Shown one piece after another: positions 11,115 through 22,398 of a stretch of DNA of 33,933 bases (position 1 is its first letter; the number at the start of each line of letters is the position of its first letter). Location: NCBI GenBank assembly GCA_005882255.1, contig VBEZ01000164.1, positions 1 through 33,933 on the forward strand, given 5' to 3'. Both the position numbers and the translations under genes were made by a program. The DNA is from Chloroflexota bacterium. GTDB taxonomy: Bacteria > Chloroflexota > Limnocylindria > P2-11E. Below the pieces are notes generated by a model. It saw only the letters and a program-made list of their open reading frames with translations. It was not told the origin of the DNA and made no database searches.

Positions 11115-11497
11115 CCTTCCTGATCGATGCGAACGTCATCGTCTACGCCGCCGTGCCATCGAAGTACCGCGACGCCTGCCTCGAGATCCTCGAGGCCGTG
11201 GCGGAGGGCAAAGCCGAGGGGCGGGTTTCGACCGCCATCATCGAGGAGGTCTGGCACATCGAACTCTCTGGGCGTGCGGGCGCGATCGATGGACTCGCGC
11301 GACAAACGTGCTTGGCATTCTCGCCGCTGCTCCCCGTGAACGATCAGATCATCGGAAGGGCCCTCGATCTCGAGGCGCGGCGACTTGGCGCGAACGATCG
11401 CATCCACGTCGCGACCGCTCTCGCCAACGACATCGACACGATCGTTTCAGCCGACGCTGAGCTTCGCCTGAGGTCTTGGTTCAGCGCGCATCCGTGA
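11111..11497 (+). CDS. vapC: VapC-like PIN-domain toxin ribonuclease
   Basis: A 128-residue PIN-domain protein, the RNase toxin of a type II toxin-antitoxin system. The acidic active-site residues are visible: Asp6 in MTFLIDANVIVYA, Glu in STAIIEEVWHIEL, Asp in GANDRIHVATAL and Asp in TIVSADAEL. These would bind Mg2+ for RNA cleavage. Translation starts at a TTG that overlaps the antitoxin stop codon (TTGA), so synthesis is coupled to that of VapB. The target RNA cannot be predicted. The 3' end overlaps the convergent endonuclease III gene by 17 bases. Confidence 0.88.
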   Translation: MTFLIDANVIVYAAVPSKYRDACLEILEAVAEGKAEGRVSTAIIEEVWHIELSGRAGAIDGLARQTCLAFSPLLPVNDQIIGRALDLEARRLGANDRIHVATALANDIDTIVSADAELRLRSWFSAHP

Positions 11498-12314
11498 CCC
11501 CGATGCGTGGGCAGAGCGACGAGAGCACGCACTGCGAGCAGTGGGGCCGTCGCGCGATGCAGACCTCGCGCCCGTGCCGGATCAGATGCATGTGTAACGC
11601 GTACATCGCGCCCGGCGGCACGGACGCCTGCAGCTCCTCTTGCGCGACGACCGCGTCGGCGCGCTCGTCGACGAGGCCGAGCCGACGTGCGACGCGATGC
11701 ACATGCGTATCGACCGGGAAGTACGCACGGTCGAGCGAGAAGAGCAGGACGCACGCGGCGGTCTTCGGCCCGACGCCGGGGAGCGATACGAGCAGATCCC
11801 ACAGCGCCCTCGAACGCATGCGCGAAAGCGCTCGCTCGTCGAGTGCGCCGAGCCGACGTGCGACGCGATGCACATGCGTATCGACCGGGAAGTACGCACG
11901 GTCGAGCGAGAAGAGCAGGACGCACGCGGCGGTCTTCGGCCCGACGCCGGGGAGCGATACGAGCAGATCCCACAGCGCCCTCGAACGCATGCGCGAAAGC
12001 GCTCGCTCGTCGAGTGCGAGGCCGCGCTCGCGAAGCGCGCGAAGGATCCCGCGGATGCGAACGGCCTTCGTCGGTCCGAGACCACCACGGTGTATCGCCC
12101 GCGCGATCGCCGGCAGCGGCGCGTCGGCTACGTCGTCCCACGACGGGAAGCGCGCGCGCAGATCGGCATAAGCGCGGTCGCGGTTCGTGTCACTGGTGTG
12201 CTGCGAGAGCACGGTCAGGATGAGCTCGTCGAGCGGCGGCAGGCGGCGCGGCGCCGGTGGCGCGCCATAGAGCTTGCGCAGACGGAGCGCGATGGCGCGA
12301 AGACGTCGCTGCAC
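11481..12314 (-). CDS. Endonuclease III-like DNA glycosylase with a duplicated catalytic core
   Basis: A 277-residue HhH-GPD base-excision repair glycosylase/AP lyase; relatives are about 210-220 residues. The extra length is a perfect repeat of 57 residues. Each copy holds the helix-hairpin-helix LPGVGPKTAACVLLFSLDRA with the catalytic Lys, and FPVDTHVHRVARRLG with the catalytic Asp. The C-terminus keeps the 4Fe-4S ligands in the standard C-x6-C-x2-C-x5-C spacing (CIARRPHCSQCVLSSLC). The N-terminal part (LDELILTVLSQHTSDTNRDR) is a normal Nth helix. Two consecutive active-site modules in one chain would be unusual; the fold would have to loop one copy out. Because the DNA copies are identical, an assembly artefact is possible. 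The start is a GTG. Confidence 0.85.
   Translation of the reverse strand: MQRRLRAIALRLRKLYGAPPAPRRLPPLDELILTVLSQHTSDTNRDRAYADLRARFPSWDDVADAPLPAIARAIHRGGLGPTKAVRIRGILRALRERGLALDERALSRMRSRALWDLLVSLPGVGPKTAACVLLFSLDRAYFPVDTHVHRVARRLGALDERALSRMRSRALWDLLVSLPGVGPKTAACVLLFSLDRAYFPVDTHVHRVARRLGLVDERADAVVAQEELQASVPPGAMYALHMHLIRHGREVCIARRPHCSQCVLSSLCPRIGVTDAR
11676..12017. repeat. Perfect 171-bp tandem direct repeat
   Basis: Bases 11676-11846 and 11847-12017 are identical over 171 positions, which is 57 codons, so the reading frame of the endonuclease III gene is kept. The identity stops sharply on both sides. A shared nonamer, GCTCGTCGA, precedes each copy at the same offset (11663 and 11834) and recurs at 12005. 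Such short homology is consistent with slippage or unequal recombination. Confidence 0.97.
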
Positions 12315-19071: not shown

Positions 19072-19099
19072 GGGAATGCCCTGGGCCGGTGGGCGCGTT
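19072..19099 (+). promoter_or_regulatory. Sigma-R-like autoregulatory promoter candidate
   Basis: GGGAAT at 19072-19077 is followed after 19 bases by GTT at 19097-19099. This agrees with the SigR/SigH consensus GGGAAT-N18/19-GTT. It lies just upstream of a SigR-like sigma gene, so positive autoregulation is likely. Predicted transcription would start about 10 bases before the GTG. Confidence 0.55.
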
Positions 19100-19114
19100 C
19101 GATAGAGTGAGCAG

Positions 19115-19690
19115 GTGGCAGGCGACGAGTTCGAAGCCGAGGCGCTCCGCCATCTCGACGCGCTCTATCGGACCGCGCTGCGCATGACGCGGTCGGAGGC
19201 CGATGCGGAGGACCTCGTGCAGGAGACCTACATCAGGGCGTTCCGGTTCCGGGAGCAGTTCACGCTCGGCACGAACATGAAGGCCTGGCTCTTTCGCATC
19301 CTCACGAACACGTTCATCAATACCTATCGGCGCAAGGCCGCCCAGCCCGAGGTCACCGACCTCGAGGGCGTCGACGAGTTCTCGCTCTACCGCCGGATGG
19401 CCGACGACCGTGCCGCCTCCTCATCGCCCGATCCCGAGACGGAGCTGCTGAACCGCGTGGTCGATACCGAAGTGACCGACGCGCTCGAGGAGCTGCCGGA
19501 GAAGTTCCGCACCGCCGTCCTGCTCGACGTCGAGGGCTTCTCCTATAAGGAGATCGCGGAGATGCTCAGCATCCCGATCGGGACGGTGATGTCGCGACTG
19601 CATCGAGGTCGGAAGTTCCTCCAGAAGCGGCTGTACGACCTCGCCCGTGAGCGCGGGATCGCTGCCGTGCGGACGCCGCAGAAGGGTTAG
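19115..19690 (+). CDS. ECF RNA polymerase sigma factor, SigR/SigH-like
   Basis: A 191-residue group IV sigma factor. Region 2 (residues 8-75) reads [20 protein letters not shown], then [13 protein letters not shown] and [18 protein letters not shown]. Region 4 (about 120-178) reads [20 protein letters not shown], then [21 protein letters not shown]. Both match the SigR/SigH oxidative-stress branch. The next gene encodes a zinc anti-sigma protein six bases downstream, so release by thiol oxidation is the expected control. The start is GTG at 19115; the upstream promoter candidate suggests that the factor activates its own gene. Regulon members were not identified. Confidence 0.88.
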
Positions 19691-19696
19691 GGGACG

Positions 19697-19936
19697 ATGA
19701 ACTGCAACGACTGCGTGGAGCGGCTCTACGCCTTCCTCGACCTCGAGCTCGACGAGAAGGAGCTCGCTCAGGTGCGCGCGCACGTCGCCGGATGTGACGA
19801 CTGCGGCGATCAGTTGGGCCTCGAGGCGCGGTTCCTCGACCGTCTTCGCGACTGCTGCACCTCCGACGTCGCCCCGACGCTGCTCCGCGAGCGCGTCATC
19901 CTGAAGATCCGAGGCGCGAGTCCGCCGGCGAGCTGA
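19697..19936 (+). CDS. Zinc-binding anti-sigma factor (RsrA-like)
   Basis: A 79-residue protein of the ZAS anti-sigma family. The zinc motif H-x3-C-x2-C is present (HVAGCDDC, residues 29-36), with an additional N-terminal Cys pair (MNCNDCVERLYAFLDLELDE). In RsrA, oxidation of such cysteines ejects zinc and frees the sigma factor. A C-terminal helix (RFLDRLRDCCTS) carries a further CC pair. GGGGA precedes the ATG at short spacing. The gene is cotranscribed with the sigma gene directly upstream, so it should bind that factor in the cytoplasm. Confidence 0.85.
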   Translation: MNCNDCVERLYAFLDLELDEKELAQVRAHVAGCDDCGDQLGLEARFLDRLRDCCTSDVAPTLLRERVILKIRGASPPAS

Positions 19937-19949
19937 GACCACTCATGTG

Positions 19950-19980
19950 TTGACATTTGCGACGTGAATGTGTCTATATA
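19950..19980 (+). promoter_or_regulatory. Housekeeping-type promoter for the lysine-rich peptide
   Basis: TTGACA at 19950-19955 is a perfect -35 box. A TATATA box lies at 19975-19980 after 19 bases, overlapping TATAAC at 19977-19982. The spacing is slightly long. The AT-rich stretch stands out from the GC-rich surroundings and points at the 17-residue peptide gene about 30 bases downstream. Confidence 0.6.
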
Positions 19981-20016
19981 ACGAACAATGCGTGGCCAAG
20001 AGGAGGTGATTCACTA

Positions 20017-20070
20017 ATGCCGGCGAAGAAGAAGGCTGCAAAGAAGTCCAAGAAGAGCAAGAAGAAGTAA
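20017..20070 (+). CDS. 17-residue lysine-rich peptide
   Basis: A very short open frame encoding MPAKKKAAKKSKKSKKK, in which 11 of 17 residues are Lys. The AGGAGGTGAT at 20001-20010 is a near-perfect complement of the 16S rRNA 3' end, six bases before the ATG, so strong translation is expected. A promoter lies upstream and a hairpin terminator starts seven bases after the stop, making an isolated transcription unit. The composition resembles the Lys/Ala tails of histone H1-like and HupB proteins, so nucleic-acid or ribosome binding is a possible role. That is inference; I know of no named family. A leader-peptide or RNA role is also possible. Confidence 0.6.
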   Translation: MPAKKKAAKKSKKSKKK

Positions 20071-20076
20071 GTGTTG

Positions 20077-20107
20077 AGCGCGACGAGCGATCGTCGCGCT
20101 TGTTAAT
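20077..20107 (+). terminator. Terminator after the lysine-rich peptide
   Basis: AGCGCGACGA-GCGA-TCGTCGCGCT forms a perfect 10-bp stem with a GCGA tetraloop, followed by TGTTAATT. It starts seven bases after the peptide stop codon. The T-run is weak, so it may need help or act mainly as a 3' stabiliser. Confidence 0.65.
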
Positions 20108-20134
20108 TCCGATCTGGCACCTTTCGCGAACCCA

Positions 20135-20170
20135 CCGATCCGCGTAGGCCTCGCGGATCGGTTTCTTTTT
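20135..20170 (+). terminator. Strong Rho-independent terminator
   Basis: CCGATCCGCG and CGCGGATCGG form a 10-bp GC-rich stem with a 7-base loop, followed by TTTCTTTTT at 20162-20170. With the flanking A-T pair the stem is 11 bp. It would stop readthrough from the peptide unit into the membrane protein gene. Confidence 0.85.
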
Positions 20171-20215
20171 ACCCGATGCTCACCGTAGAGTCGGGTCATC
20201 GATTCGAAACGTGCG

Positions 20216-20581
20216 ATGCCGCCGCTCCGCTGGCCCGCGATCCTCGCGGGTGTCGCCCTCGCCGTCGTCCTAGCGCTCTTGAGCGCGCTCGCCCTGCCCC
20301 CGATCTCGGCAGCGGCCGCGTCCTTTTTCGGTCTCTTCGTTTCGGGTCTTTTGGCAGGAAAACTGGCCAAAGAAGGCCGGGTCTACCACGGCGCGCTGGT
20401 AGGCGCGGGCTATGTCCTCTGCGAGGCGCTGGGCATCGTGCCCGCCCTCAGCCCGACCGCGGATCCCCTCACCGATACCGTCGCGGTCATCGTGTCCGAC
20501 GCGTTGCTGCTCGCTTCCGCGGCGCTGGGCGGGTGGTGCTCGCGGCTTTGGTCTTCTTCGGATACGGGCACAGCTCGCTGA
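20216..20581 (+). CDS. Small membrane protein of unknown function
   Basis: A 121-residue hydrophobic protein with about four membrane segments: AILAGVALAVVLALLSALAL, ISAAAASFFGLFVSGLLAG, a Gly-rich segment (HGALVGAGYVLCEALGIVPA) and VAVIVSDALLLASAALGG. The pattern resembles TIGR04086/YrzE-like small membrane proteins, but I cannot assign a family. The ATG at 20216 lacks a clear ribosome site. Its last 95 bases overlap the convergent endonuclease III gene, an unusually long overlap; hydrophobic coding continues well into it. Confidence 0.6.
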   Translation: MPPLRWPAILAGVALAVVLALLSALALPPISAAAASFFGLFVSGLLAGKLAKEGRVYHGALVGAGYVLCEALGIVPALSPTADPLTDTVAVIVSDALLLASAALGGWCSRLWSSSDTGTAR

Positions 20582-21209
20582 TCGGGCACACCGGACACTT
20601 CGGCGTCGGGGTGCAGATGCGGCGGCCGTGCAGCACGAGATTCCACGTCGCCTTCACCCAGTCCTTCCTCGGATAGAGCGACCGCAGCTCCTGCTCGATG
20701 CCGTCGGCTCCCTTCCGGGTGAAGCCGAGCCGGGTGGCGACGCGCTCGACGTGGCGGTCGACGGCGATCGCCGGAACCCCAAAGGCGTTCCCGAGGACGA
20801 TCGATGCGGTCTTGCGACCGACGCCTCGGAGCCGCACCAGCGACTCCATGTCGCCCGGGACCTCGCCGCCGAACTCGGCCAGCAGCTGCTCGGAGGACCC
20901 ACGGATCGCCTTCGCCTTCATCCGGAAGAAGCCGGTGGCGTGAACGTCGCGCTCGAGCTCCTCGACCGGCACCTTGAGGTAGTCGGCCGGGCCGCGGTAC
21001 TTCGCGAAGAGAGCCCGCGTCACCTGGTTGATGTGTTCGTCCTGCGCCTGCGCGGCCAGGATCGTCGCGACGAGGAGCTCGAACGGGCTGCTGAACTCGA
21101 GCGTCGGCCCCCAGTCCGGTTGGGCCTTGGCCAAGCGCGTCAACACACCCTGCGCTCGGCGGCGTCGCGCCGCCGGATCCTCGCGACCCCGCGACGCACT
21201 TCGGGCCAC
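20487..21209 (-). CDS. nth: Endonuclease III
   Basis: A 240-residue HhH-GPD DNA glycosylase/AP lyase for oxidised pyrimidines. The N-terminal helix PFELLVATILAAQAQDEHIN is typical. The helix-hairpin-helix LRGVGRKTASIVLGNAFGVP carries the catalytic Lys, and AIAVDRHVERVATRLGF the catalytic Asp. The Fe-S cluster ligands are ICTPTPKCPVCPISELC, where the first spacing is C-x5-C rather than the usual C-x6-C. A basic C-terminal tail follows. The only in-frame ATG (at 21290) lies inside the upstream lipoprotein gene; GTG at 21209, seven bases after that gene's stop, is the best start. GTG at 21146 is a shorter alternative. This is the second Nth-type enzyme in the window. Confidence 0.85.
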   Translation of the reverse strand: MARSASRGREDPAARRRRAQGVLTRLAKAQPDWGPTLEFSSPFELLVATILAAQAQDEHINQVTRALFAKYRGPADYLKVPVEELERDVHATGFFRMKAKAIRGSSEQLLAEFGGEVPGDMESLVRLRGVGRKTASIVLGNAFGVPAIAVDRHVERVATRLGFTRKGADGIEQELRSLYPRKDWVKATWNLVLHGRRICTPTPKCPVCPISELCPYPKKTKAASTTRPAPRKRAATRRTR

Positions 21210-21216
21210 CCGGGCG

Positions 21217-22398
21217 CTAGACGCGCGGGGCACAGCGGCACCACTCCGGTCGCCACCCGCCGGGCGTGACCCGACCGACGGGACCGGCACGGTCGGGTTG
21301 GAAGTACAGCCATTCGTCGCCGTCGTCGACCTGGACGAGAAGGACCGCGCCGTCGGGCGACCAGGTGAAGTCGAGGAAGTGCTTCTGCGAGTCGTACAGC
21401 TCGCGGCGCTGACCGCCGACGGGATCGATGACGCTGAGCCAGTGATGATGCGGCTGCGCGTTGATGATCGAATAGGCGAGCACCGGCGCCGTCGGCGACC
21501 AGCGCAGGTCGGCGACGTGGTGGATCGCGCCGGTCTTCCCGATCACCCACAGCTTCGGCGGCGCCCCGGCCACCGGCTCCTGCGTGTACACGATCTGCTC
21601 CGCCTCGAGGATCGGCCCCTTCTCGATCGCGGCGTAGGCCACGAGCTTCCCGTCCACCGAGAACTGCGGGCCACCGATGAGGCCCATGCCCTTCGGCGCG
21701 ATGTTCGTCGAGTAGCGCGTGAGGTCGGCGAGCGTCACGAGCATCTGCGTCGGGAGCTCCTGTGATGTCCCGGAGGCGAGCGGCCGCAGGTCGGCGAGCG
21801 CGATCGCGCCGGTGATGTGCGCATAGCCCAGGTGCGTGCCGTCGGGTGTGAAGGCCGGATGCGTCCCCGGACCGACGATCAAGTTGACCGCGGCCGTCAC
21901 GTCATAGAGGTGGACGTCGCCGATCGCGCCCGCGAGCGATCCGCCCGCCGCGGCGGTGCCGCCGGAGATGACCTCGCCGTAGGTGAGATAGCGGCCGTCC
22001 GGGGACCACGCATAGCCGTCGAGGAAGGTGTCCGGCTTCGTGAGCCGCACCGGCGCGGCACCGGAGCGGACGAGGAAGAGCGAGCTCCCACCATCGCCCG
22101 GCACCGCGCGCTCCGCCGCGATGAGCGTTCCGTCGGGTGACCACTTACCGCCGAGGTAACCCCCGCCGGTCGCGCCGTCGGCTGTGACGGGGACCCGGCC
22201 GCTGCCATCGGGAGCCGCGGTCCAGAGATCGAGTCCCCCCTTGCTGAAGAGGACCTTGCCCGAGGGAAGGCCCGTCGGCGCATGGTCCGGCGGCGTTGTC
22301 GAGACGGGCGTCGGGCGCGTGACCTGGGGGGACGGGGCCGAGCACGCCGCGACGATGAATAGGAGCACAGCGAGCCCGGTAGCGCTACGACGCGGCAC
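21217..22398 (-). CDS. Lipoprotein with TolB/PD40-like beta-propeller
   Basis: A 393-residue exported protein. The signal peptide MPRRSATGLAVLLFIVAACS ends in the lipobox VAAC (Cys19), so it should be lipid-anchored outside the membrane. A Pro/Thr-rich spacer follows. The body has repeated PD40 blades: LDLWTAAPDGSGRVPV, GKWSPDGTLIAAE, YAWSPDGRYLTYGE, PAFTPDGTHLGYAH and DFTWSPDGAVLLVQV. No enzyme motif is visible. It resembles the protein at 9299-10714 in design, although the sequences differ. It starts at a GTG and is divergent from the amino-acid importer operon. Confidence 0.8.
   Translation of the reverse strand: MPRRSATGLAVLLFIVAACSAPSPQVTRPTPVSTTPPDHAPTGLPSGKVLFSKGGLDLWTAAPDGSGRVPVTADGATGGGYLGGKWSPDGTLIAAERAVPGDGGSSLFLVRSGAAPVRLTKPDTFLDGYAWSPDGRYLTYGEVISGGTAAAGGSLAGAIGDVHLYDVTAAVNLIVGPGTHPAFTPDGTHLGYAHITGAIALADLRPLASGTSQELPTQMLVTLADLTRYSTNIAPKGMGLIGGPQFSVDGKLVAYAAIEKGPILEAEQIVYTQEPVAGAPPKLWVIGKTGAIHHVADLRWSPTAPVLAYSIINAQPHHHWLSVIDPVGGQRRELYDSQKHFLDFTWSPDGAVLLVQVDDGDEWLYFQPDRAGPVGRVTPGGWRPEWCRCAPRV

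Follow-up and report, generated by a model that had tools for sequence, protein, structure and literature searches.

Within a 33,933-nt stretch of DNA from a soil bacterium of the Chloroflexota (the whole of which is called the window here), a frame of only 17 residues, mostly lysine, lies behind an extended Shine-Dalgarno (SD) sequence. The first-pass annotation had proposed that this is an isolated transcription unit for a real peptide, one that gene callers would miss. The locus thus raises the questions of whether the frame is a gene, where its transcript ends, and what so simple a polycation might do. The features discussed below are collected in Table 1. A 26-nt element antisense to the rplL 3' UTR, a second copy of the unit in most genomes, and micropeptides of this type in other phyla all lie beyond what that annotation had described.

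Table 1. Features of the micropeptide unit and its neighbourhood (window coordinates)
Feature	Position	Strand	Basis or remark
ECF sigma factor, upstream neighbour outside the unit	19115-19690	+	Pfam; syntenic
zf-HC2 anti-sigma, upstream neighbour outside the unit	19697-19936	+	Pfam; syntenic
Promoter, TTGACA -35 and TATATA-like -10	19950-19980	+	block TTGACAT-N-TGTGTCTATATA conserved in locus-A orthologues
5' UTR with conserved GTGGCCARGAGGAGGTGAT	19988-20016	+	27-unit alignment
Extended Shine-Dalgarno AGGAGGTGAT	20001-20010	+	window-unique; long 16S-tail complement
Micropeptide ORF MPAKKKAAKKSKKSKKK	20017-20070	+	17 residues, mostly lysine
Hairpin 1, 11-bp stem, GAGC loop region	20076-20101	+	predicted in 27/27 locus-A units
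26-nt 3' element TGGCACCTTTCGCGAACCCACCGATC	20115-20140	+	antisense to rplL 3' UTR
Hairpin 2 (loop TAGGCCT) and U-tract, likely terminator	20134-20171	+	terminator score; covariation
DUF3792-like membrane protein, downstream neighbour outside the unit	20216-20581	+	Pfam; syntenic
nth, downstream neighbour outside the unit	20487-21290	-	Pfam; syntenic

Conservation of the frame and its ribosome site

Searching for homologues by peptide sequence alone is of no use, returning no match even in its own genome. When the 163-nt unit was searched in 101 genomes, 28 matched: 27 of the 28 members of this family and the only genome from a sister family; a backwards control pattern had no match in 177 genomes. 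Most matching genomes contain two matches at fixed and distinct genomic places: a long one that takes in the promoter (locus A) and a shorter one covering the SD and the ORF (locus B). At the syntenic locus A, the frame is intact in 27 genomes of one Chloroflexota order, and the gene order is kept in every locus-A contig of sufficient length. Locus B follows a uracil-DNA-glycosylase gene, often an HTH_17 gene, and precedes a gene that is SCP/CAP-like or of another kind. Taking the two loci together (27 A and 22 B), an open lysine-rich frame behind a strong SD was present in all 49 units read. The search of relatives for the same peptide with the same ribosome site, which the first-pass annotation had suggested, thus bears out its claim of a real peptide that gene callers miss.

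DNA-repair genes often adjoin the micropeptide loci, with nth at A and uracil-DNA-glycosylase at B (a small sample); by eye, neighbours of this type are also seen elsewhere (UvrA-like in L112, MutS-like in L109, RecD-like in L081, UvrD-like in L093). Elsewhere in the window, an HhH/Nth-like ORF (11481-12314, minus strand) appears to contain a stretch of about 50 residues repeated exactly in tandem (SRMRSRALWDLLVSLPGVGPKTAACVLLFSLDRAYFPVDTHVHRVARRLG twice), either a real repeat or an assembly artefact.

Across the A and B loci, the peptide varies from 12 to 20 residues, and the changes in length are always in frame. The codons for Pro2 (CCG 20, CCA 20, CCC 7) and for Ala3, which uses all four, reveal synonymous third-position change. 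The 49 peptides form a lysine- and alanine-rich low-complexity segment (of about 796 residues, 447 are Lys and 154 Ala), and almost no residues other than K, A, S, T, G, H, M and P occur. Lysine is encoded by AAG in 443 of 447 cases, compared with 179 of 196 in window genes (p 2e-6), a preference that is compatible with strong expression or with the avoidance of runs of A. In addition, the A and B peptides of a genome resemble each other. Their mean edit distance is 3.2 versus 5.4 with shuffled partners, or 2.2 versus 4.4 when genus g5 is left out (0/5000 shuffles in each case); in three genomes the two do not differ at all, and in 21 of 23 genomes they end in the same residue (K or H). Part of this co-variation stems from shared ancestry; the switches seen within genera would be accounted for by gene conversion or by a selective demand common to both copies.

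The ribosome site is exceptional among window genes. AGGAGGTGAT occurs once in the window and the shorter GGAGGTGA twice, counting both strands. In 42 of the 49 orthologues and paralogues, the longest run exactly complementary to the 16S tail has 10-13 nt, whereas in 20 window genes taken for comparison only 3-6 nt are complementary. The near-perfect ribosome site of the first-pass annotation is thus found in the relatives as well. Taken together, the comparison of genomes gives good support to the reading that this is a real, conserved gene for a 17-residue lysine-rich peptide.

Promoter, hairpins and the end of the transcript

The perfect -35 hexamer noted earlier, TTGACA at 19950-19955, falls within a block that is conserved in relatives, and a search with this promoter block gave a single match per genome, at locus A, in each of six genomes tested. 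The AT-rich -10 is also present (TATATA, 19975-19980), but it lies 19 nt away, so the promoter is no textbook sigma-70 match; a sigma-70 scan with 16-18 nt spacing found no promoter at the unit. Judging from the position of the promoter, transcription would start near 19988. A mini-ORF, MRGQEEVIH (19988-20017, plus strand), begins at this point, and its stop overlaps the micropeptide start (TAATG/TGATG). It was considered as a functional part and set aside: it is kept in two genera only and is probably incidental to the transcription start.

Control of the unit by the neighbouring ECF sigma factor, whose orthologue at E 1e-30 is restricted to those 27 genomes of the order, was likewise set aside as unlikely, since the promoter is TTGACA-type and does not resemble the GGGAAT-GTT motif recognised by eye in front of the sigma gene. 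The latter (GGGAAT...GTT, SigR/SigH-like by eye, window 19074-19105) precedes the sigma gene itself, for which autoregulation is possible.

It had been proposed that the hairpin at 20076-20101 is the terminator of the unit and that the transcript is about 130 nt long. The stem itself is real, being predicted in all locus-A units; it is retained while its sequence differs between genera, with a C-G pair replaced by U-A on both arms between L001 and L003. However, a U-run follows it only in some genera, and the genome of the window has no proper U-tract there; consequently, the RNA probably continues beyond this hairpin. A second hairpin (20134-20162, followed by TTTCTTTTT) scores as a terminator. 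Its stem is paired in 225 of 225 cells, with two of nine pairs altered on both sides, and the GGCC of its loop is invariant. Given this score, the unit would extend over about 19950-20171 and yield an RNA of about 180 nt, not 130, that probably ends at hairpin 2 rather than hairpin 1. The predicted fold of the presumed 126-nt transcript was no more stable than its shuffles (z -0.5), and Rfam covariance models had no match at the micropeptide locus or at the rplL element described below.

At locus B (L031 and L041, for example), a different hairpin, GGCGCCGC-GGGCGG-GCGGCGCC, follows the second copy in 22 of 22 loci; its loop is invariant, one pair is switched on both sides, and it is without a U-tract.

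Complementarity between the 3' element and the rplL mRNA

The most conserved non-coding stretch of the unit, YGRCACCTTTCGCGANCYCRCCGAYC (20115-20140), lies between the two hairpins, just before the terminator. A covariance model of the unit's 3' end recovered locus A and, in most genomes of the order, a weaker second match on the opposite strand, downstream of the stop codon of rplL, which encodes ribosomal protein L7/L12. Wherever rplL lies on the stretch (19 of 19 cases), this site is 112-234 nt past the stop, and the rplL terminator follows directly. Because the polarity of the site past rplL is inverse, the rplL mRNA bears the reverse complement of the 3' element of the micropeptide mRNA.

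In 20 genomes, 499 of 520 cells between the element and the rplL site can pair (475 Watson-Crick and 24 G-U). Nearly all of the 21 mismatched cells are at position 16 or 17, and when 16 is paired, 17 is usually unpaired. At position 20, both partners have A in genus g1 and G in all other cases; at position 3, both have A in G004 and G028, but G013 and G025 show this A only at locus A. Among the one-sided changes, five are of the G-U type. The energy of the duplex, computed for five pairs, is -48 to -51 kcal/mol, compared with a shuffled mean of about -17 to -18. When partners were permuted among the 10 distinct pairs, relatedness not being removed, the observed pairing was reached in 37 and the Watson-Crick count in 12 of 10,000 permutations.

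The element had no match at 0-1 mismatch in 148 genomes of the other families of the class. Within the order, the rplL site is present in genera g7 and g8 (G014, G011) and in many g5 genomes, and it was not found in 7 of the 27 locus-A genomes (G006, G007, G009, G010, G012, G019 and G023). These seven include all four genomes of genera g3, g4 and g6; the assemblies are incomplete, so that gaps or loss could account for them. Locus B is without the 3' element; consequently, the pairing is not essential to the role of the peptide. Taking these results together, the case for RNA pairing between the 3' ends of the micropeptide and rplL mRNAs, as judged from the complementarity, has moderate support.

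Two other functions for the element were rejected. Sequestration of the SD in cis by its CACCUUU is matched by chance, as 39 to 248 of 300 shuffled elements pair equally well, and an anti-SD regulation of many mRNAs would meet window genes that hardly use the SD.

The peptide type in other phyla and its possible role

Micropeptides of this kind were sought in one genome per species (84,980 species) with a pattern consisting of GGAGGTGA, 3-12 nt, and codons for M-P-A-K-K-K. Of the 61 matching stretches, 59 hold a closed ORF 12-50 residues long; the Chloroflexota type accounts for 38, and the remaining 21 come from about ten other phylum-level groups, named in the records of the metagenome-assembled genomes as Acidobacteria, Zixibacteria, Eisenbacteria, Latescibacteria, Edwardsbacteria, UBP2, Verrucomicrobia, Lentisphaerae, Nitrospirae and Woesearchaeota, together with one unplaced bacterium. 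Since the pattern itself requires a strong SD, the association of SD and peptide is not demonstrable from it alone. With a relaxed GGAGG pattern in 24 genomes or records, all of the pure lysine-rich micropeptides had GGAGGTGA; where it was lacking, the ORF coded for a longer or a different protein. Some flanks are conserved inside each clade and different between clades, and in Zixibacteria, similar lysine repeats form the tail of SWIB-like and zinc-ribbon-like proteins (domains assigned by eye). Common descent across phyla is not demonstrable in such simple sequence, and convergence is possible.

Several of these relatives have features of their own. In Acidobacteria (L087, L093, L104, L139), a long, strongly conserved ORF-free 5' region of about 110 nt precedes the micropeptide ORF and ends in GGCAGAT...ATCTGCC right before the SD; it has the look of a structured leader and no Rfam match. 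Lysine-rich micropeptide ORFs occur as tandem pairs in L085 (Nitrospirae), L111 and L138, with a strong SD on each in L085, and on two viral contigs (L142, L143) a small MPAKKK protein, 34 and 81 aa long respectively, is encoded behind GGAGGTGA.

Within the reach of the searches, the micropeptide is new, with no relative in Pfam, Rfam or the PDB. Pfam had no match for the 20-aa form, and its HC2 model met a 49-aa Zixibacterial peptide at E 0.38 and 11.2 bits, below the cut-off of 40; among solved PDB chains no relative was found, a weak test with a low-complexity 20-mer. In the literature, coverage of which is partial, the MPAKKK string appeared in no relevant paper and nothing was found on such lysine-rich small proteins. 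The likeness to histone tails noted at first holds in composition: AAKK, KKS and KKT, together with the charge, recall the tails of HupB-type HU, Hc1/Hc2 and SWIB-linked proteins, unlike which the micropeptide has no attached globular domain. HU (PF00216) is present in 25 of 29 genomes of the order (G000-G028), where it is without a long lysine tail, and in none of 22 genomes sampled from the rest of the class; as a single phylogenetic contrast, this is weak support for a tail-like role.

In its layout, the unit is like VcdRP of Vibrio cholerae (PMC8672173), SgrS/SgrT and SR1/SR1P, each a short transcript with a promoter, a terminator, a small ORF and a pairing segment. It carries a promoter and terminator of its own at the sequence level (the TTGACAT block, and hairpin 2 with its U-tract) and a conserved, translated-looking small ORF, with intact frames and synonymous change. 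It differs from them in that 26 nt would pair with the 3' end of a ribosomal-protein mRNA instead of a short seed at a ribosome site, that the peptide is a lysine polycation, and that regulation is predicted from sequence. Because the base pairing is seen on these grounds only, membership among dual-function RNAs is not claimed. The 5'-3' UTR pairing of icaR in Staphylococcus aureus (PMC3868564) is another case of a 3' UTR that works by base pairing, but within one mRNA, whereas here two different mRNAs would meet 3' end to 3' end.

Given all of these findings, a model can be put forward, to which a probability of about one half is assigned, in which a dual-function mRNA encodes a histone-tail-like lysine polycation and is coupled to ribosome synthesis through 3'-3' RNA pairing. 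In this model, a short mRNA (about 19988-20171) would have two working parts. The 5' part would specify the disordered 17-aa micropeptide, made in quantity through the extended SD; its abundance is argued from the promoter and from this SD in a genome whose genes mostly lack one. The peptide, whose biochemical role would be read from its composition only, may act as a free-standing polycation like the tails of histone H1 or HU on nucleic acid (DNA or rRNA). The 26-nt segment before the terminator would base-pair with the complementary segment before the rplL terminator, and the paired mRNAs would stabilise or destroy each other, in either direction, tying peptide output to ribosomal-protein synthesis. 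The comparison of genomes establishes the frame, the ribosome site, the second copy, and the 3' complementarity with its covariation at the level of sequence; from these we infer the level of expression, the pairing in the cell, the direction of regulation, and the binding partner of the peptide.

Other explanations accept part of this evidence. The 26-nt element might be a DNA site, with TCGCGA as its core, for a sequence-specific protein at both terminators, the abundant peptide being real and no RNA-RNA pairing taking place. The core is nearly invariant in both copies, its palindrome tolerates either orientation, and both copies are beside terminators; however, the complementary stretch is 26 nt long and not palindromic, most one-sided changes are of the G-U type, the single mismatch shifts between positions 16 and 17, and at every locus the element faces the two terminators with opposite polarity, as an antisense relation demands. 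A DNA site is thus doubtful, while deserving serious weight. At the other extreme, the RNA alone might matter, as an sRNA or a ribosome-binding decoy, with the peptide as a by-product. The strong conservation of the UTR and the 3' element and the keeping of the RNA stems would fit this, but it is quite improbable, considering that residues are constant while third codon positions vary, that indels come in multiples of three, that locus B retains the peptide without the 3' element, and that other phyla retain the peptide type amid different flanks.

A leader-peptide attenuator has also been considered, in which ribosomes stalling at lysine codons would set termination at hairpin 2 before the DUF3792-like gene. 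Although the order of the parts is suggestive (a lysine-codon-rich ORF, two hairpins, and then a gene on the same strand), the arms of hairpins 1 and 2 are not mutually complementary, so that mutually exclusive folds are lacking; in addition, locus B and the copies in other phyla precede unrelated genes, and it is the amino-acid pattern, beyond the lysine count, that is kept. This is the least probable of the alternatives. Finally, the peptide could be a short ribosomal protein or a ribosome-bound factor, like bTHX, bS22 or bL37, co-regulated through rplL, which would agree with its small size, its very basic nature, its strong SD and the tie to a ribosomal-protein mRNA. Its range of length (12-50 aa) and its sequence drift, however, go far beyond what is expected of a specifically docked ribosomal protein, and no relative turned up among solved chains, a weak test for so short and simple a query; such a role is unlikely.

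In the preferred reading, that of a polycation coupled to ribosome synthesis, the 3' pairing, if real, would mean that two mRNAs meet end to end before their terminators, an unusual coordination of a ribosomal-protein operon with a nucleic-acid-binding peptide. A wider version can be advanced only tentatively: free-standing lysine "tail" micropeptides of 12-50 residues with an extended SD would be found in many phyla, and the Chloroflexota order would have added the rplL 3'-3' antisense coupling. As gene callers skip ORFs this short, an abundant class of cationic peptides could be unannotated in about ten phyla. In the order studied here, the rplL-antisense tail of the mRNA suggests that production of the peptide is wired to the production of ribosomes.
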